The translations under genes and the position numbers were made by a program. Source: Nitrosomonas sp. (GTDB lineage Bacteria; Pseudomonadota; Gammaproteobacteria; Burkholderiales; Nitrosomonadaceae). From it: DNA of 64,000 nucleotides. How positions within the stretch are numbered: position 1 is the stretch's first letter; every line of letters begins with the position of its first letter. This document shows, piece by piece, positions 23,002 through 54,690 of this stretch. The stretch is from contig NZ_JAMWZS010000006.1 of assembly GCF_024282095.1 (NCBI RefSeq), positions 1 to 64,000 on the forward strand. Reading direction: 5' to 3'. The notes beneath the pieces were generated by a model. That model had not been told where the DNA came from, ran no database searches, and was given only the letters and a program-made list of their open reading frames with translations.

Positions 23002-26000
23002 CTATCGTTTAATCAATCCCGACAAATGCTTTAACAATTCATCCTCTTTATAAGGCTTACCCAGAAACACATTAACGCCTAAATCCTTGGCGATTTTTTG
23101 ATGTTTTTCTGCGGTTCGTGATGAGATGACGATGATCGGAGTTTTGGCCGTTTGCGCATTGGCGCGCACATTTTTGATGAGTTCAAAGCCGTTCATTTTA
23201 GGCATTTCCAAATCGACCAGCATGACGTCCGGAATGGTTTCCTGAAGTATTTCCATCGCTTCCGCACCATTCTTGGCGATCAGCACGTCACAGCCTTCAC
23301 GTTCCAACAGGCGGCAGGTGACTTTGCGTACCGTCAATGAATCGTCCACCACCATGATGGTGGGTGTTTGCGTCGATCTCTTTTGAGTGGTGGTTGTTAA
23401 TTGGGCAACAGGTGTGCTGAAAACCTTTTGTACGTCGTTGCGTTGCAGCAGTTTGACCGGATTCAGGATCAGAATGATTTCGCCGTCGCCGGTGATGGTG
23501 GCGCCTTCGACACCGGGTGCCTGTGCGAGCTGCGCACCGGTATTTTTGATCACTACTTCGACGTTGCTGATCAATGCATCCACATGGATGGCAAGATATT
23601 GGGTGCCGCTATGCAGGAACAGCACTTGGCTGTGTTTGGTGATTTCCGGAATATGATCAGATTCGCCTAGCAGATGGGATAGATGGGAGAATGGATAGGT
23701 TTTTCCATTAAATGCAATGCGATGATCTTGATAGGCTTTCTTTAGCGTGCTCGGATCCAGCTCGGAGTGATGCTCGACAATGAAAGCAGGGATTGCATAG
23801 ACTTGTTTTGCAGCGCGTACCATCAGTGTTTGCGCCACAGACAGCATGAGTGGCAGACAGATCGTAAAGGTTGTGCCTTGGTTGGCAACGGAATTGACAC
23901 TGATGCGGCCACCCAGCATGGCAATTTCATTCTTGACGATATCCAGACCAATGCCGCGGCCGGCAATTCCCGTGATGGAATCCATCGTTGATAGACCTGG
24001 CATGAAGATGCATGACATGACTTTGTCGTCATCAAGCGCTGCATTGTCCTGAATCAAACCGAGCCGTTGCGCTTCTTCGCGGATGCGCGGCAGATTCAGG
24101 CCGCCGCCGTCGTCACTGAGGGTGATGATCACTTCATTGTTTTCCTGGCGCAACTGGATGGTTACTTGTCCGGTTTCAGGTTTTCCTGTCTGTTGCCTTT
24201 GTGCCGGTTCCTCGATGCCATGAGCGATGGCATTACGTAACAGATGCTCCAACGGCGGATTAATTTTTTCCAACACATTGCGGTCGATTTCAAGGTCCGC
24301 GCCTTGGATTTCCAGATTGGCTTTTTTACCCATATCTTCCGCCACTTGCCGGGCGATACGGTAATAGCGTTCGGCATAATTGCTAAAGGGTATGGTGCGG
24401 ATCTGCAACAGGGATTGCTGGAGCTGGCGATTGATCACGGATTGTTGTGCAGCGGCTTCTTCGGCGGCATGATGCGTGGTACGCAGGTTTTTTTGCACCG
24501 TGATGATGTCGTCAACACTTTCAGCCATCAATCGCGTCAATTCCTGGAAGCGCGTGAAACGATCAAACTCAAGCGGATCCAGTGAATGTTCGTCATGCTG
24601 TTGCGCGAGATGCGATTGCATGTGTGTTTCCGCCTGAATTTCAACTTCGCGCAACTGGTCGTGCAGGCGGTGGGTGCTTTCAGCAAGATCCTGCAATGAT
24701 TGCTTGAAATTGTTGAGCTGCGCTTCAATTTTTGAACGCAGGATACTGGCTTCGCCGGAATCGTTGACCAGACGATCAATCAATTCGGCATTAATGCGTA
24801 CAATGGTTTTGGCCTGCAGCGACTCTGGTTTGTCAGATGTTGGTGCGACTGTATCAACCGCCGTATCCATTGCAGTCTGTTCGGTTGTCGCTGGAAGTGT
24901 TGTATTGTCTTGTAGTTGCTCAATCTTGCCACTGATGATGTCAAACTCGGTTTCCAGTTGATCCAGTGCGGAATCGGAAATATCGTGTTCGCGGAAAGCC
25001 GATTCGACATGACTTTCCATGCCATGAATCAATTCACCCAATTGCAAGGCGCCTACCATGTGGGCGCTGCCTTTCAACGTATGCAGCAGCCGCAGTAACG
25101 CGTGATGGATATCCTCATCGTGTGGCAACATGCGCCAGCCACGCAATTTGCCGCCGATTTGTGGAATGATGTCTTGTGTTTCTTCAAGAAATACCGGGAG
25201 TAATTCTTGATTGATCGCATCTTGCGCACCCACGACAGGTTGTACAAGCGGTATGGATTCTGCGGTGACTACAGTTGGCGGTGATTCTGTCGCCGCTGCC
25301 GGTTGTTCAGGCAGGGCATCAAATGATGCTGCAATGGCAGTTTCTTGGGCGATCTCTGCTTGCGGTTGCGTGACTGCATGTACAGTTTCTTTCTCAAGAA
25401 TCAGTTGTCGTGCCAATTGCAACAATTCATCGGCATCAATCTGCGCGGTGCCATGTTCACGCAGGTTTTTGCACCACTGTTCATAGGCCCGGTGTGCATG
25501 GGCGATTAGCGCGATGAGTTGTGTGGAAACAGGCCTGTTTTCAGTGAGCCAGTGATCAAGAACCTGCTCCACGCGCCAGGCCACTTCGCTCATGTCATCC
25601 AGTCTGACCATGCGGCCACTGCCTTTGAGCGTGTGAAAGGCGCGCCGCAAGTCAGCAAGCGCGTGTGGATCTGCAGGATTGGCTTGATAGCTGTGTAGAT
25701 TACTGTCGATGTTTGCCAGCACTTCGTCAGCTTCTTCCAGGAAAATATCGAGCAGTTCCGGATCGATTGCCGTATCTGCCACTTCGATGGGTTGTGCAGC
25801 GGTTTTTACCGTTTCGGCAGGCTCAGCATAGATTGCTGGTGTCGGTAGCGGCGCGCTTCCGGGGATCATTGCGATTTGGAATAGCGTGATGGCTTCTTCG
25901 ATAATCTGGTAGCTGTCCGGTTGTCCGCTTCTAAGCGCTTCGATGAAGAAAGCCAGGCTGCTTAACCCATCCACCAGCAGGATTTGTTCGGTTTCGGCAA

Positions 26001-27567
26001 TTTCATAGTCGGGTTCCAGCAGTTTCTCCAACAGACTCCAACAGAGATCCAATAACGTATTGGCGCGTTCCAGATCCAGCATGACCAGTGCGCCGGAAAC
26101 TTGCTTGTGTAAAGCTGAAAGCGCAGATAGCTCGGAACGTTGGGAAGGCTCAAAAAAGAATTTGTCGAGGATATGTTCAATTTGCTTCAAGTTGGTCAGA
26201 ATTTCTTGCGCAACTTGTGCCAATAATTCTTTTTCCTGTGTCCTGCTGTCGATTGCGTTGAACGCCGGCGTACTCGATAGCTCACTGCCTTGATGCTCTA
26301 CCGTGATTTGATGCAGACGGGAAGCGAGCGTGTCGATCTGCTGTGGTAAATCCGACGGTAAATTGTGAAAGTCATCGATGATACTTTCAATCAGCAATAA
26401 CGCCGTGGCCATTTCCATTGCCAGCTCTTCGCTCGTATCCTGGGGGTGATCATGTAAATAAGCAACGGTATTGCCGATGACATCGATCAATCGTCCTAAC
26501 GGCGCACATTCGGTTTGCTGCGCCAGATGCCCGAGCCAGTCGGTGTATTCCAGCAATGAAACCAGGCTTTCCTGATGCCCCGCACAAAACTCACGCCAGA
26601 TATCGTTGGTTTGCATCAGCGTGCTACGCAACCTGTCCAGGACGGGCTGCAAGGTTTCCGCTTGTTCCAGCGTCAGCGTGTCTGTATCTGTTGCCTGCCC
26701 CGGCCACACATAGCTATGCTTGATGTCGGTGATGCGTTGGCTGGCTGATTCGCTATGGGCGATGTGGTAGAGCAATTCGCGCATGAGCGTTGCGGTATTG
26801 CCAGGCGTTCCGGCGGCAAGATGGCGGATGGTTTGTTCAATTTTTCCGCATAGGCGACGGATGGAAAGATCAATTTGATCGCTTTCCTGTTGCAGCAGAT
26901 CTTCCAGAAAACCGGCGGCTACCCACCAGAACGCGCGTTCTTCGGTGGCTCCGGGAAATTCTTCAATGCGATTGACCGCATCAGCCATTTGTTGCAGGCC
27001 ATCTTTATTCGATGGATCACGCAGCCACTTGAGCAAGCCGGCCTGAAATGCAGCACCCATCTGCTTGGCCACAATTTTCGCCGCGACAGCATCGATATGC
27101 GTTGCTTCAGCCTTTAATGCCGGGCTGACGGTTAACCGGGGGAAGAATAGATCGCTTTCGGGCGCATTCTCGAATCCATAGACTTGCATCAAGCCGCGAT
27201 AAGCCGGAAACAGGCGCAGCGGATTTTCTTCTTTACCGTCGATAAGCTCATTCAGATAGTAGAGTAATGCTTTATTGGATTGCTTCAGTGCATCGCAAAT
27301 CTGCGGATTGGGTGCTATTTTTTTGACAAGAAGCGCATCGACCAATTGCTCCATTTTGTCGCTAACGACGGTAATGCTGTTCAAACCCAGCATTTCAAAC
27401 AAGCCGTCCATCTGATGAATGTAGTTTTTGCAGTCTTTGACCGGATTCAATTGATCCGGATGCTGGCTATAAGCGTCTAAATTTTGATCAATCAAAGAGA
27501 AGACTTGATAAATCCCTTCCTTGATGCCGATAATCGAAGAAATGTTAAGTTTTGGTTGAGCGCTCAT
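23002..27567 (-). CDS. ChpA/PilL-like hybrid chemotaxis histidine kinase
   Basis: A 1521-residue CheA-type hybrid kinase of the type IV pilus chemosensory kind. The first 600 residues are helical and poorly conserved, as in ChpA. Two phosphotransfer domains carry HTLKGSGRMVRL (about residue 645) and HTLKGSAHMVGA (about 832), each with a phosphorylatable His. A dimerisation/ATPase block follows: NAIAHGIEEP (about 1112), LSDDGGGLNL (about 1155) and GRGIGLDIVK (about 1210). Then come a CheW-like domain (about 1240-1380) and a receiver with VVDDS, acceptor Asp in LVDLEMP (about 1451) and LGKPYK (about 1502). It lies 40 bp after the PilJ-like gene. It probably controls pilus-driven movement; pilG, H and I are not here. 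Its receiver tail is duplicated at 20310-20622. Confidence 0.88.
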   Translation of the reverse strand: MSAQPKLNISSIIGIKEGIYQVFSLIDQNLDAYSQHPDQLNPVKDCKNYIHQMDGLFEMLGLNSITVVSDKMEQLVDALLVKKIAPNPQICDALKQSNKALLYYLNELIDGKEENPLRLFPAYRGLMQVYGFENAPESDLFFPRLTVSPALKAEATHIDAVAAKIVAKQMGAAFQAGLLKWLRDPSNKDGLQQMADAVNRIEEFPGATEERAFWWVAAGFLEDLLQQESDQIDLSIRRLCGKIEQTIRHLAAGTPGNTATLMRELLYHIAHSESASQRITDIKHSYVWPGQATDTDTLTLEQAETLQPVLDRLRSTLMQTNDIWREFCAGHQESLVSLLEYTDWLGHLAQQTECAPLGRLIDVIGNTVAYLHDHPQDTSEELAMEMATALLLIESIIDDFHNLPSDLPQQIDTLASRLHQITVEHQGSELSSTPAFNAIDSRTQEKELLAQVAQEILTNLKQIEHILDKFFFEPSQRSELSALSALHKQVSGALVMLDLERANTLLDLCWSLLEKLLEPDYEIAETEQILLVDGLSSLAFFIEALRSGQPDSYQIIEEAITLFQIAMIPGSAPLPTPAIYAEPAETVKTAAQPIEVADTAIDPELLDIFLEEADEVLANIDSNLHSYQANPADPHALADLRRAFHTLKGSGRMVRLDDMSEVAWRVEQVLDHWLTENRPVSTQLIALIAHAHRAYEQWCKNLREHGTAQIDADELLQLARQLILEKETVHAVTQPQAEIAQETAIAASFDALPEQPAAATESPPTVVTAESIPLVQPVVGAQDAINQELLPVFLEETQDIIPQIGGKLRGWRMLPHDEDIHHALLRLLHTLKGSAHMVGALQLGELIHGMESHVESAFREHDISDSALDQLETEFDIISGKIEQLQDNTTLPATTEQTAMDTAVDTVAPTSDKPESLQAKTIVRINAELIDRLVNDSGEASILRSKIEAQLNNFKQSLQDLAESTHRLHDQLREVEIQAETHMQSHLAQQHDEHSLDPLEFDRFTRFQELTRLMAESVDDIITVQKNLRTTHHAAEEAAAQQSVINRQLQQSLLQIRTIPFSNYAERYYRIARQVAEDMGKKANLEIQGADLEIDRNVLEKINPPLEHLLRNAIAHGIEEPAQRQQTGKPETGQVTIQLRQENNEVIITLSDDGGGLNLPRIREEAQRLGLIQDNAALDDDKVMSCIFMPGLSTMDSITGIAGRGIGLDIVKNEIAMLGGRISVNSVANQGTTFTICLPLMLSVAQTLMVRAAKQVYAIPAFIVEHHSELDPSTLKKAYQDHRIAFNGKTYPFSHLSHLLGESDHIPEITKHSQVLFLHSGTQYLAIHVDALISNVEVVIKNTGAQLAQAPGVEGATITGDGEIILILNPVKLLQRNDVQKVFSTPVAQLTTTTQKRSTQTPTIMVVDDSLTVRKVTCRLLEREGCDVLIAKNGAEAMEILQETIPDVMLVDLEMPKMNGFELIKNVRANAQTAKTPIIVISSRTAEKHQKIAKDLGVNVFLGKPYKEDELLKHLSGLIKR

Positions 27568-27607
27568 TGTTGAATACTATCAATCAATAGTCAGATTGAA
27601 AATAGCA

Positions 27608-29716
27608 TCAGACTTTAAAATTAGCTACCGAAGCTTTTAACTCGGATGCGAAGCCTGTGATTTGTTTGACGGATGTTGTGGTTTGCCGGGTTCCTTCGGT
27701 GTTTTGCCGGGTAATATGAAGAATTTCTTCCATGTTGGCGACAACCTGATGTGCTGAACGCGTTTGGACGTTAGTGGCATCGAAAATATTGGTAACCAAT
27801 TGCGCCAGTTGTTTTGACACTCCCTCGATTTCTTCCAAAGCCCGCCCGGCTGCATCGGAGCGTTTGGCGCCCTGCGTCACACCCAGCGTACTTCTTTCCA
27901 TCGCGGCAATGGCATCTTGTGTATCACCCTGGATGGTAATGATTAGCTCACTGATTTGTTTGCTCGCTTCCGCAGATTTCTCGGCCAGACGCTGCACCTC
28001 CTGCGCAATGACAGTAAAGCCGCGTCCTGCTTCACCGGCGGCGGTGGCCTGGAGCGCTGCATTTAACGCCAGTACATTGGTTTGCTCGGTGATATCGGTG
28101 ATCAACGCAACGATCTCGCCGATTTCCTGTGAGCTTTCGCCCAGGCGTTTGATGCGCTTGGAAGTATCCTGTATGAAGGTGCGGATTTCATTCATGCCGG
28201 CGATCGATTCGCGTACGGCAAGCGTGCCTTTTTCCGCGGTCGCCAGCGATTGTTTGGCGACTTTGGCGGATTCTGTCGCCATATCCGATACTTCGGTGAT
28301 GGATTCGGTCATGCCCAATACGGCGATGGTGGTTTCCTCAATTTTTGCGGATTGTTGTTGTGCGGCGGTTAATAAGCCGGATGACACATGTTGCGCTTGG
28401 TTGGATGCGCTGACAACCAGTGCGCTTGCCTGATTCACCTGTTCTACCAGGGTATGTAATTCTTCGATGGTGCAATTGATGGCATCGGCAATAGCGCCGG
28501 TCATATGATGGGTGATGTCGGTGCGCACGGTCAGATCGCCATCGGCGATTCTCTTCATGTCATTGAGCAGCGTTTGAATGGCCTTGCGCGCTGCTTCAAT
28601 TTCATTTCGACTCACTAATTCTTGTTTGCGCACGTTCTGGCGTAATGATCTGGCGAAAAAGATGGCGGCAATGATCAATCCTGCGCTCAAGGTATAAATC
28701 AGGCTATTGAGCAAAGATACCGTGTGCGATGCCTGCGCTTGGATTGCATGGTCAAATTCTTTGATCATATCCAGCGTCGCGTCATTGTTGTCTATGATCT
28801 GATGAACAGCCGATTGAGCCGCCATGGCCGGCGCAATTTCTTTTTCAATGATATTCAGATGATCATCGAATTTTCTCATCAACGCGTACACGTGCGATAG
28901 TAGATCCTGGATGGCCTCATCTTTGTCCGAGGCTGATCCCAGTCCATTACTACCTTGGCTGAGGATTTGCATAATGGTTGAGATTTGTGCGTGATCCTGC
29001 GCGAGTTTCGCAGAGATTTCGGCCGGTAATAGTTCGTTAGGAAAAATGGCATGAATATTTCTTGACACGCTGCGTGCATGCATTCTGATGCTTTCCAGCG
29101 TTTTTATCTCATGCGACAGATTCCCGATTTCTATCATGCGGTTGATTAATTGTTCGATGCGCCTAGTTAACTGGCTATGAGTAGTACTGATTACTCGCGC
29201 ACTGTTGGTCAGCTTGATCAGAGATTCTTGATGGCTCAGAATCAAATCGATTTTTTTGGCCGCAAGCTGCCAGTTGTTATGATAGACCTCCAGGTTTGAA
29301 GGCAGCGGAAGATCGGATAGCGGTGAAATTTTTTCATGACGATAGATGCCGCCCTGAAATAGCAACGTGAGGTATTGATTCAGCTGGGATTGATTGTCGT
29401 GTAATTGTGTAAACGCAATGGTATTGCCGCTGAGCGCCTGTTGCGCGGTTTTCGGCAGCTGCAAATGCTGTATCTGTAATTGTGAAATCAGCGCGGATTG
29501 CGCGGCGCTTTGCCTGGTTTCTTGTTCACTGATACTGACCGCGATCAACAGAAACAGCATGAGAAGCATCAGCACGGCGCCTGATATCCAATTATTATCT
29601 AGCAGAATGGCGTGTTTTGAGACATTCTTCTTCACCGGTAGCGTCATAACCGGCAAGTTTGTTTTGATTGCGGCGATACCCGTCGTTAGTCTAAATTTAG
29701 AAAAATGCTCTTCCAT
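27608..29716 (-). CDS. PilJ-like methyl-accepting chemotaxis transducer
   Basis: A 702-residue transducer. Segment 1 (WISGAVLMLLMLFLLIAVSI, about residues 43-62) and segment 2 (SLIYTLSAGLIIAAIFFARS, about 335-354) bracket a helical periplasmic sensor that resembles the type IV pili transducer N-domain. A HAMP-like linker and an MCP signalling hairpin follow, with the tip GEAGRGFTVIAQEVQRLAEK. The ATG at 29716 follows ggag at eight bases; an upstream in-frame TTG-region start at 29734 is less likely. The ChpA-like kinase is 40 bp downstream, so the two form a sensor-kinase pair. Confidence 0.88.
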   Translation of the reverse strand: MEEHFSKFRLTTGIAAIKTNLPVMTLPVKKNVSKHAILLDNNWISGAVLMLLMLFLLIAVSISEQETRQSAAQSALISQLQIQHLQLPKTAQQALSGNTIAFTQLHDNQSQLNQYLTLLFQGGIYRHEKISPLSDLPLPSNLEVYHNNWQLAAKKIDLILSHQESLIKLTNSARVISTTHSQLTRRIEQLINRMIEIGNLSHEIKTLESIRMHARSVSRNIHAIFPNELLPAEISAKLAQDHAQISTIMQILSQGSNGLGSASDKDEAIQDLLSHVYALMRKFDDHLNIIEKEIAPAMAAQSAVHQIIDNNDATLDMIKEFDHAIQAQASHTVSLLNSLIYTLSAGLIIAAIFFARSLRQNVRKQELVSRNEIEAARKAIQTLLNDMKRIADGDLTVRTDITHHMTGAIADAINCTIEELHTLVEQVNQASALVVSASNQAQHVSSGLLTAAQQQSAKIEETTIAVLGMTESITEVSDMATESAKVAKQSLATAEKGTLAVRESIAGMNEIRTFIQDTSKRIKRLGESSQEIGEIVALITDITEQTNVLALNAALQATAAGEAGRGFTVIAQEVQRLAEKSAEASKQISELIITIQGDTQDAIAAMERSTLGVTQGAKRSDAAGRALEEIEGVSKQLAQLVTNIFDATNVQTRSAHQVVANMEEILHITRQNTEGTRQTTTSVKQITGFASELKASVANFKV

Positions 29717-29885
29717 CGGTTTCTCCAGGCACAATAGCGGCTTATCTGAACTTCGAATGCTTTTGACACAATAACTTGAGTGTCGTCAGACCGTAGCATA
29801 GCCGCTATGGCTGGTAGTCAAAAACAGAATAAGACCTGGAAACAGATGTCTTTTAGGTGTTGATATTTCTAGCGGACCGCTGAAT

Positions 29886-31537: not shown

Positions 31538-31870
31538 TTAGTTGTTCTCTTTCACCGGAAATAATTGTTTACCGGAACACTGTGCGTTTTGTTTGAGCTT
31601 GGCATTGCTCAATCTGTCCCAATGCAGCAGATCCACCTTGAAAACCAGCGGCAAGGCATCGATTTCATTCCATAACCGGGTGAAGGTATTGTCGTTCATG
31701 CCGGGGGCGATGACCGCGAGATCGATATCCGATCCATCCTTGTAATTCCCTTTGGCGCGAGAGCCAAAAATCAGTACTTGATGAATATCCGGGTAACGTG
31801 CAAAAACCTGCCGGAGATCTTCGATAATCGCGGGTGACAAACCGTAGATCAATGGATTTCCTTGCGCCAT
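31538..31870 (-). CDS. MNT-type minimal nucleotidyltransferase (antitoxin-like)
   Basis: A 110-residue protein of the MNT nucleotidyltransferase family. The active-site motif is intact: LIFGSRAKGNYKDGSDIDLAV (about residues 33-53), with GSxxxG and the DxD metal pair. A third acidic residue is expected in KVDLLHWD. In HEPN/MNT toxin-antitoxin modules this protein AMPylates or otherwise modifies and silences its HEPN partner. It overlaps the end of the upstream helical-partner gene by 22 bp, so the two are translated together. The module lies between two repeats of the ilvA 5' end. Confidence 0.85.
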   Translation of the reverse strand: MAQGNPLIYGLSPAIIEDLRQVFARYPDIHQVLIFGSRAKGNYKDGSDIDLAVIAPGMNDNTFTRLWNEIDALPLVFKVDLLHWDRLSNAKLKQNAQCSGKQLFPVKENN

Positions 31871-32250
31871 GTCGCTACGTCCTGCGCCAGTTCCTTGAAA
31901 AGTAATTGTCCTTGGTTAACCAAGAAGTTATACACGGTATCGGCCAATTTCTCGTCGTAGGTGTGGCTGGTGAGGTTACGCATCTTCTGTGCTTCACTCC
32001 AGGCATTGCCATCCCTAATCAGACCCTTGCTGAGCGATTCCTGAAACACGTCGCGTGGTGTTAATACCTCAATTCCCACCATTTCCAGGCGAAGCTTGAG
32101 GATTTTCCATGCCAGTTCCCAGCAAAACTCGAATCGCTGAATGACAGAATCTCGAATAAATGAGTTAAACGGTTGTTCACAAGCTTCTGTCAAGCGCGCA
32201 GCAGCACGCACGAAAGTATCCGCGCGTTCGGTAAACCGTTGGATATCCAT
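31849..32250 (-). CDS. HI0074-type nucleotidyltransferase substrate-binding / HEPN-like protein
   Basis: A 133-residue all-helical protein of the HI0074 family, a structural relative of HEPN domains. Visible: RFEFCWELAWKILKLRLE (about residues 39-56), TPRDVFQES and the polar helix MRNLTSHTYDE (about 90-100). The RNLTSHxYD pattern resembles the RxxxxH RNase motif of HEPN toxins, though spacing makes catalysis uncertain. An aggagac site precedes the ATG at 32250. It is the first gene of the two-gene module; the MNT gene overlaps its 3' end by 22 bp. Confidence 0.85.
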   Translation of the reverse strand: MDIQRFTERADTFVRAAARLTEACEQPFNSFIRDSVIQRFEFCWELAWKILKLRLEMVGIEVLTPRDVFQESLSKGLIRDGNAWSEAQKMRNLTSHTYDEKLADTVYNFLVNQGQLLFKELAQDVATWRKEIH

Positions 32251-32486: not shown

Positions 32487-32584
32487 CTTTACGTTTCTCT
32501 CGTCTAATATTTACGTTTATTTGTCATTATCTTTACATTTAAGTGCTGTAAGCTTTACAATTAACAGAAATAACCTTTACGTTT
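32487..32584 (+). promoter_or_regulatory. Five CTTTACGTTT-type motifs at exact 22-bp spacing
   Basis: The ten-base motif YTTTACRWTT occurs at 32487, 32509, 32531, 32553 and 32575. The forms are CTTTACGTTT, ATTTACGTTT, CTTTACATTT, CTTTACAATT and CTTTACGTTT. Successive starts are all 22 bp apart, about two turns of the helix, so five protein molecules could line up on one face of the DNA. The last copy ends 10 bp before the ATG at 32595. The next gene encodes an HTH-ATPase protein, so this is most simply its own operator array. The array also overlaps any promoter here, which suggests repression. Confidence 0.8.
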
Positions 32585-32594
32585 AATATGCCAA

Positions 32595-33602
32595 ATGTTG
32601 ATTGATGAACCCACTCGCGGCCTCCTGAAGCTTGTTTCCGATAGCGGAGGAAATGTTGCCGCCAGACTGGCCAGTAGTTTAGGTATATCGCGTCAAGCCG
32701 CCAGCGCAAGATTGCGAACCGCAATATCAAAAGGATTGATTGCGAAGCATGGTGTTGGGCGAGGTGTTGAGTATGTGCTCACTGAGACGGCTCGTGTTCA
32801 TAAGGAATACGACAGGGCAGGTTTATCCGAAGATAGGGTTTGGTCTTCTCTATTTGCGCCGGTAGTAAAAGACTTGCCAGAGAATGTCCGCGATGTTTGG
32901 CGCTATGGCTTTACCGAAATGATCAACAATGCGATTGATCATTCCGGCTCAGATAAAATTACCGTTTGGGTAATGCGAAATGCCTTATATACGCAAGCTT
33001 GGGTTGCTGATGATGGGGAAGGTATCTTCAACAAAATTCAGAAAGCCCTTGACCTTTACGATCCGCGCGAAGCAATTCTGGAACTGGCAAAAGGGAAATT
33101 CACAACAGACCCGGTAAACCATTCGGGTGAAGGGATTTTCTTTTCCAGCAAAGTATTCGATCTTTTTGATATTCGATCGGGAAGTCTTCATTTTATGCAT
33201 GAGGACGGATTGGATGATATGTTGATAGAGCGTCCAAAAAATGCGCCAGGAACATTGGTAGTCATGCGTCTGATGAACGACAGTACCCGCACAACAAAAG
33301 AAATTTTCGACAAATTCGCGGTACCTGAGGAGTATACGTTCGCTAAAACAATTGTTCCTGTCCGATTGGGTCAATACGAAGGTGAAAAATTGGTATCCAG
33401 ATCACAGGCGAAAAGACTGATATTTCGTTTTGAGAAATTCAAAACAGTCATTCTTGATTTTACCGGGATTGAAGAAATTGGACAGGCTTTCTCTGATGAA
33501 GTATTCCGAGTATTCCAGAATGTCCATAAAGATACCAAGCTTGTGCCGGTAAATATGACGCCCGCGGTAAGGAATATGGTGTCACGAGCGAAAGCAGGAT
33601 AA
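32595..33602 (+). CDS. HTH-HATPase-DUF4325 regulator
   Basis: A 335-residue cytoplasmic protein with three parts. A winged helix-turn-helix spans about residues 6-65 (LASSLGISRQAASARLRTAI is the reader helix pair). A GHKL-type ATPase spans about 90-225 (EMINNAIDHSG as N box, VADDGEGIFNK as G1, HSGEGIFFSS as G2), as in anti-sigma kinases such as SpoIIAB. A STAS-like DUF4325 domain spans about 250-330 (VILDFTGIEEIGQAFSDEVFRVF). The same polypeptide thus holds DNA reader, kinase and antagonist-like domain. Five motifs spaced 22 bp stand right before it. There is no Shine-Dalgarno site. The biological cue is unknown; the gene sits next to the MNT/HEPN pair in an accessory island. Confidence 0.8.
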   Translation: MLIDEPTRGLLKLVSDSGGNVAARLASSLGISRQAASARLRTAISKGLIAKHGVGRGVEYVLTETARVHKEYDRAGLSEDRVWSSLFAPVVKDLPENVRDVWRYGFTEMINNAIDHSGSDKITVWVMRNALYTQAWVADDGEGIFNKIQKALDLYDPREAILELAKGKFTTDPVNHSGEGIFFSSKVFDLFDIRSGSLHFMHEDGLDDMLIERPKNAPGTLVVMRLMNDSTRTTKEIFDKFAVPEEYTFAKTIVPVRLGQYEGEKLVSRSQAKRLIFRFEKFKTVILDFTGIEEIGQAFSDEVFRVFQNVHKDTKLVPVNMTPAVRNMVSRAKAG

Positions 33603-54102: not shown

Positions 54103-54690
54103 TCAGATTCCAGAAGAAAATCCAACCATATCCGCAGATAAATCACCTGACTGTAGTCCAACCAAAGTGATAGAGGCGATATCATCAACAAAATGAACGA
54201 CTACACCTTCATTGGTATCTTCGAAGCTGCTAATCATCAGTACTAATTCCTCAAGGCTATCAATACCGGTCGATTTTGATTCAAAAATCAATAAATCTGC
54301 TTGAGCATCGAAATCTTGCACGGTGAAGTGACCAGCAGCATAAAAACTGAATTGATCGTTATCTGCCCCACCAGTTAAGTCATCGTTGCCTTTTCCAGCA
54401 TGGAGAACGTCATCACCTAGCTCCCCTATTAAAACATCATCTCCAGCGCCACCGTCGAGATGATCATCCCCATCACCGCCGTTGAGATTATCATTGCCAT
54501 CTCCGCCAATGAGAACGTCATCACCTAAATCACCTGTCAAAACGTCATTGCCAGCACCGCCATCCAATCCGTCATCGCCGCCACCGCCGTTGAGATTGTT
54601 ATTGCCGTCGCCGGCGTGGAAATGGTCATTATTATCGTCTCCGAGGAAGTCATCTTGACCGATTGATCCATCATCTATACTTATACTCAT
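54103..54690 (-). CDS. Small RTX calcium-binding protein
   Basis: A 195-residue very acidic protein. Residues about 15-110 are RTX nonapeptides (GGGGDDGLDGGAGNDVLTGD, GGDGNDNLNGGDGDDHLDGG). The last 85 residues (FSFYAAGHFTVQDFDAQADL, then SLEELVLMISSFEDT) resemble the C-terminal export and capping region of type I substrates. No signal peptide. taggag precedes the ATG. It is separated from the larger RTX gene by about 250 bp. Calcium-dependent folding outside the cell is expected; a target is unknown. Confidence 0.8.
   Translation of the reverse strand: MSISIDDGSIGQDDFLGDDNNDHFHAGDGNNNLNGGGGDDGLDGGAGNDVLTGDLGDDVLIGGDGNDNLNGGDGDDHLDGGAGDDVLIGELGDDVLHAGKGNDDLTGGADNDQFSFYAAGHFTVQDFDAQADLLIFESKSTGIDSLEELVLMISSFEDTNEGVVVHFVDDIASITLVGLQSGDLSADMVGFSSGI

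Follow-up and report, generated by a model that had tools for sequence, protein, structure and literature searches.

A winged-helix, GHKL ATPase and DUF4325 protein gene of Nitrosomonas and the putative 22-bp phased operator ahead of it

The gene and its repeat array

The window analyzed here is the whole of a 64,000-nucleotide (nt) stretch of Nitrosomonas sp. DNA (contig NZ_JAMWZS010000006.1, positions 1 to 64,000), and its subject is a gene for a 335-residue protein preceded by five short direct repeats. The protein joins a winged helix-turn-helix (wHTH), a GHKL ATPase and a STAS-like domain of unknown function, DUF4325. The features are as follows, with the repeats placed by motif position and by conservation in relatives.

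32487–32496, forward strand: putative operator copy 1, CTTTACGTTT
32509–32518, forward strand: putative operator copy 2, ATTTACGTTT, with one mismatch to YTTTACRWTT (first base A, not Y)
32531–32540, forward strand: putative operator copy 3, CTTTACATTT, containing a −35-like TTTACA at 32532–32537
32553–32562, forward strand: putative operator copy 4, CTTTACAATT, containing a −10-like TACAAT at 32556–32561 with a predicted promoter role
32575–32584, forward strand: putative operator copy 5, CTTTACGTTT, 10 base pairs (bp) short of the start codon
32595–33602, forward strand: gene for the 335-residue wHTH–GHKL ATPase–DUF4325 protein, from its open reading frame (ORF) and domain searches
32595–32783, forward strand: wHTH, residues 1–63, ArsR/MarR-like fold, from predicted structure
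32784–33284, forward strand: GHKL ATPase/kinase domain, residues 64–230, SpoIIAB/RsbW-like fold, from predicted structure and conserved residues
33318–33599, forward strand: STAS-like DUF4325 domain, residues 242–335, from Pfam match, STAS fold and alignment

The repeats start exactly 22 bp apart in all four intervals of the array (32487–32584), and the last copy ends 10 bp ahead of the ATG at 32595, as a first-pass annotation of this DNA had it. That annotation read the array as five phased copies of YTTTACRWTT; the positions and the steps stand, but copy 2 starts with A, and the full motif is exact in four copies and the TTTACRWTT core in all five. Single copies are uninformative, with 42 matches at no more than one mismatch in the window against 37.8 expected. 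The five-copy 22-bp consensus scores 46 of 50, the top of the window, whereas 100 dinucleotide shuffles reach at most 39 (periods 18–26), and Tandem Repeats Finder (TRF) calls the first part of the array as a 22-bp repeat. Across the 2.8-Mb genome assembly, motif pairs at 22 bp with no more than one mismatch are found at the array locus only, the next place having two mismatches; at three mismatches such pairs are no commoner than in a reversed control.

The three-domain fusion proposed earlier holds up, with DUF4325 (PF14213) well over its Pfam threshold (E 4e-14, 52.5 bits against a gathering cut-off of 23). The HTH and HATPase profile matches lie under their Pfam cut-offs, and both domains are backed by the predicted structure. 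In that structure the GHKL domain has the fold of anti-sigma kinases (SpoIIAB/RsbW) rather than that of gyrase or Hsp90, and the C-terminal domain has a STAS fold. E108, N112, D139, G141, G143 and G178 are present in all 67 aligned homologues and G180 in 66; we take E108 and N112 to be the N-box Glu and Asn, and the glycines to be those of the G boxes. Within the DUF4325 domain S268-R269-S270 is almost invariant. Column 298, matched by eye to SpoIIAA Ser58, the phosphorylatable position at the start of helix 2 in antagonists of that type, holds Ala in 50 homologues, Gly in 14, Ser in two and Pro in one, and column 300, two residues further on, is Ser in 11, the window protein among them. The kinship to partner-switching systems noted in the first-pass annotation is thus upheld for the ATPase, with its anti-sigma-kinase fold, but classical phospho-switching inside the chain is weakened because the by-eye Ser58 column is Ala or Gly in 64 of 67. 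No known defence family was recognized with PADLOC, for which the best match of the gene has an E value of 0.0057.

Repeats and winged helix across the family

Sampling found the gene in 22 of 300 genomes from the order and in 32 of 369 from the class, and a 22-bp array lies upstream of 58 of 92 homologues compared with 2 of 417 control genes. Phased arrays are seen before homologues of other genera and orders, so the condition that would have refuted the first-pass annotation, relatives lacking a phased motif, does not hold, and the element differs by clade (TTTACRWTTA, GGTTGACAATA, TGTTGTCGA, TTTACAATAA and CTTTAAGAAA). They are also found ahead of prophage-borne relatives, in 11 of 24 upstream regions from IMG/VR; relatives are carried at 31 IMG/VR loci, from which four fragments were dropped, and three of the remaining 27, with short or repeated upstreams, were left out of the count. 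For the upstream comparison 41 homologous proteins were used with duplicates merged, and L025, L028 and L102 were dropped for want of a usable start; the lag test left out L008 and the window's cluster and used 150 of 283 controls. A second homologue set lost two of its 29 members, and 14 of the other 27 were kept as independent. In two loci (L074:4368-4685, G096:C132; and L017) about 300 bp separates the array from the gene, with terminal inverted repeats TATTATCCTAAAAACC / GGTTTTTAGGATTA that by eye are like those of miniature inverted-repeat transposable elements (MITEs). Some genomes hold gene fragments or a broken copy (L028, L009 and L025), which indicates gain and decay of the gene.

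The protein segment that goes with the operator sequence can be located by covariation. A lenient threshold gave 82 operators for the 92 homologues, or 64 once relatives above 85% identity were removed, and each segment was compared against all other residues. Operator distance follows residues 1–72 once all other residues are controlled for (0 of 500 permutations; partial r 0.33). Residues 73–333 given 1–72 yield −0.00 (251 of 500). A subset of 35 clearer operators gives 0.30 (0 of 500) for residues 1–72 and 0.06 (137 of 500) for the remainder of the protein. Within residues 1–72 the covariation peaks at 1–18 and 55–72 and is lower at the recognition helix, whose segment 37–54 alone gives 0.13 (1 of 500) with the 64 operators. 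An earlier form of the test, in which the control residues were 80–330 only and contained most of the comparison segments, was set aside; it gave 0.152 for residues 31–47 given the rest (1 of 2000 permutations) and 0.149 for the rest of the protein given the helix.

Close array matches are found solely before this gene in the 11 genomes searched with their own motif, and in whole-genome searches of six genomes of other clades all 11 array matches precede the homologue. Of nine genomes, the four whose helix is of the matching type each have a single TTTAAGAAA pair, placed ahead of the gene, and the other five, with a helix type that goes with TGTTGTCGA-like repeats, have none. Exact motif pairs were found at 11 places in 81 genomes, nine before the homologue, one before a GNAT-like gene (G022:C5) and one inside an ORF (G092); one-mismatch pairs were left unused in this search, the reversed control having given many too. 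We note that G022 also has the regulator elsewhere, and that by eye the upstream flank of its stray array resembles the regulator's own. The covariation of the array with the winged-helix part favors the earlier proposal that the array is the protein's own operator. An autoregulatory operator read by the gene's own protein is the likeliest reading of the array, and the autoregulatory phased operator as such is well supported by these comparisons of sequence.

The repeats of the window's clade also resemble promoter elements. Among 23 arrays of TTTAC type, counted with close relatives and with one mismatch permitted in TTTAC, the copy second from the start codon reads TTTACAAT in 20 cases and TTTACAAA in three. 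The first copy has TTTACRTT in 15 of 23, the third is mixed, and the fourth has TTTACRTT in 12 of 13; the AAT form is present in copies 1, 4 and 5 from the start codon in 2 of 23, 1 of 13 and 0 of 2 arrays respectively. TTTACAAT contains the −10-like TACAAT, and the next copy upstream offers a −35-like TTTACA or TTTACG at an 18-bp spacer. The array seems to be merged with the promoter in this clade, and transcription is predicted to start near 32568, 27 nt upstream of the ATG.

Neighboring genes and carriage in prophages

Between the upstream gene and the 335-residue gene, at 31538–32250 on the reverse strand, is a pair encoding an HI0074-family nucleotidyltransferase substrate-binding protein and an MNT-type nucleotidyltransferase. 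The first-pass annotation suggested a link to phage or stress defence by way of this HEPN/MNT-type pair, within an accessory island. In N. oligotropha (L012) the locus is flanked by the same two genes (threonine dehydratase-like, named by eye, and exonuclease) and has no such pair, and MNT-like genes are present at 2 of 40 loci (the strict MNT motif at the window only, and two MNT-like ORFs by eye in L023); the association with a HEPN/MNT (type VII) toxin–antitoxin pair is regarded as incidental. With the two flanking genes shared by both genomes, the locus has the look of a small insertion and not of an island. The gene next after the 335-residue gene is of exonuclease I type and on the opposite strand. 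No neighbor family was found in more than three of the 40 loci (some being the same place fetched twice), nor any common downstream family. Elsewhere in the window, genes for a CheA-type hybrid kinase and a methyl-accepting chemotaxis protein (named by eye) lie upstream of the locus at 23002–29734 on the reverse strand, and 27- and 108-bp tandem repeats lie at 54403–54613, whose unit, by eye, resembles RTX-type nonapeptide repeats read on the reverse strand.

A phage link is nonetheless retained by another route, in that relatives are carried in prophages. PHROGs comparison of the neighbors at six of the 31 IMG/VR loci identified structural phage genes at five of them:

L152: relative flanked by genes for a tail protein and the baseplate hub
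L146 and L147: relative directly ahead of the terminase small subunit
L127: relative in a stretch that includes tail sheath and virion genes
L141: relative 3–4 kb from tail fibre and baseplate genes

At L133 no recognizable structural gene was found with PHROGs among the neighbors, and the L127 relative itself has a single weak match (phrog_3364, 8.5e-6). No tblastn match was found in plasmids (72,556 records) or phages at E 1e-5. With E up to 5, the full protein matched plasmids in HTH- or ATPase-sized pieces only (15 records), and the C-terminal domain gave one weak piece in phages.

Interpretation and relation to known systems

The gene is probably a self-contained, autoregulated accessory gene. 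In the mechanism that we propose, the protein would sit side by side on its own array and repress itself; at about two helical turns, the 22-bp step would place all the sites on the same face of the DNA. In the window's clade the third-last copy would act as the −35 and the second-last as the −10, with the 18-bp spacer; the array would then double as the promoter, and occupancy would therefore block RNA polymerase directly. Less firmly, the SpoIIAB-like ATPase and STAS-like domains may together act as the sensor, and a change between the two that depends on nucleotide or ligand could loosen the array and yield bulk protein on demand, as in CapK/CapS, there with two proteins. The accumulated protein itself would be the output, because the sole target found is its own gene, and might e.g. 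sequester or modify a host or phage transcription factor; that the benefit is stress- or phage-related is a conjecture from carriage of the lone gene in prophages. A broader and tentative proposal is that these genes form a widespread, undescribed class of single-gene switch, with reader, anti-sigma-type kinase and STAS-like antagonist in one polypeptide, a sole operator in the form of a phased array merged with the promoter, and the bulk protein as effector, e.g. against phage or host transcription, in a stand-alone module of prophages and chromosomes.

Several results weigh against this interpretation. Among the 92 homologues, 34 fall under the array threshold, and of the independent homologues just 6 of 18 in the first set and 3 of 14 in the second individually reach z≥2 at lag 22. 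Lag 21 is raised in control upstreams too (combined 6.2 over 150, along with other multiples of three), and its held-out lead is thus partly unspecific. With the 35 clearer operators the recognition-helix segment 37–54 is not clear (0.06, 123 of 500) and the ATPase stretch 181–198 also rises (0.17, 3 of 500). The stray array of G022:C5 (L075:3683-3713), upstream of a gene identified by eye as GNAT-like, is a second TTTACATTT array, of two copies in 22-bp phase. A promoter-like pair on its own is at chance (2 found, 2.8 expected), so the promoter case rests on position-specific conservation, and in the TGTTGTCGA and TTTAAGAAA clades the promoter-like pair is not made by repeat copies.

Other explanations account for parts of the data. 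The protein might be the CapK/CapS DNA-damage switch condensed into one chain, in which single-stranded DNA leads the GHKL domain to phosphorylate its own or a neighbor's STAS-like domain and the DNA-bound assembly breaks. The same domain kinds and autoregulation in CapK/CapS, the SpoIIAB-like fold with invariant E108 and N112, and carriage in prophages all suit this; it is nevertheless unlikely given the Ala or Gly at the by-eye Ser58 column (although column 300 is Ser in some), the different domain order, repeats that are direct and not palindromic, and the absence of a downstream immune operon. The near-invariant S268 and S270 could be an alternative candidate phospho-acceptor. A conventional regulator with further distant single or degenerate sites, for which the array is merely the autoregulatory site, is somewhat less probable again: the genome has eight more single CTTTACRWTTA sites (11 in total, three in the array) and G022 has its second array, but such sites are not enriched (11 against 8 in the reversed control), and no second close array is seen in the 11 genomes searched with their own motif.

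The array could also be a stack of duplicated −35 and −10 elements that the protein does not bind, as the TTTACA, the TACAAT and the 18-bp spacer between adjacent copies would allow. This is improbable, because the AAT form is rare in copies 1, 4 and 5, other clades keep the phase with motifs unlike −35 or −10, and operator distance tracks residues 1–72. More improbable still is an array read by some other DNA-binding protein, with the gene as no more than a target, given close arrays solely before this gene in those 11 genomes, a motif varying with the protein's own winged-helix part, and arrays accompanying prophage-borne relatives too. The self-read, autoregulatory array would connect a domain of unknown function with a circuit that can be tested. 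The joint variation of operator and winged helix across dozens of relatives also makes the family well suited to studying how protein–DNA recognition evolves on phased arrays. Partner switching is usually spread over several proteins, and here a single chain, behind an operator of its own, combines the parts, both in genomes from the order and class and in prophages.

The C-terminal domain is a member of DUF4325 (PF14213), a family whose name gives no function and turns up in two papers, and no description of a one-chain wHTH–GHKL–DUF4325 architecture was found in the literature searched, which covered few subscription papers and no bioRxiv preprints. In ParR/parC and TubR/tubC of plasmid and phage partition, a DNA-binding protein occupies regularly spaced direct repeats at its own promoter, as proposed for the 335-residue protein, but these systems have a filament-forming partner whereas the 335-residue gene has neither a recurrent partner gene nor a plasmid match at E 1e-5. 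SpoIIAB/SpoIIAA and RsbW/RsbV are separate proteins that act on a sigma factor, with a phospho-Ser and without a DNA-binding domain (partly after PMC13373217).

Compared by description, the closest circuit is CapK/CapS (and VapKSC), with wHTH, STAS and anti-sigma-kinase GHKL parts, autoregulation and a phage or stress link (PMC13373217, EMBO J 2026); the terms DUF4325, 'repeat' and 'fusion' are absent from the main text of that paper. There, CapK has the order HTH–STAS–GHKL, CapS has a conserved phospho-Ser, the sites are palindromic with TTAA half-sites, and a known or predicted immune operon lies downstream in 348 of 443 cases. The 335-residue protein shares the three domain kinds and, as we read it, the autoregulation, but in one chain ordered wHTH–GHKL–STAS rather than in two (or three) proteins, with 22-bp direct repeats instead of palindromes and Ala or Gly at the column matched by eye to the phospho-Ser. 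Nor is there a two-adjacent-gene layout, with no neighbor family in more than three of 40 loci, or an immune operon, the next window gene being the exonuclease I-type gene on the other strand and no downstream family being shared. Despite these two differences of layout the protein may work like CapK/CapS, and a phage- or stress-related output would make it the single-gene equivalent of that circuit.
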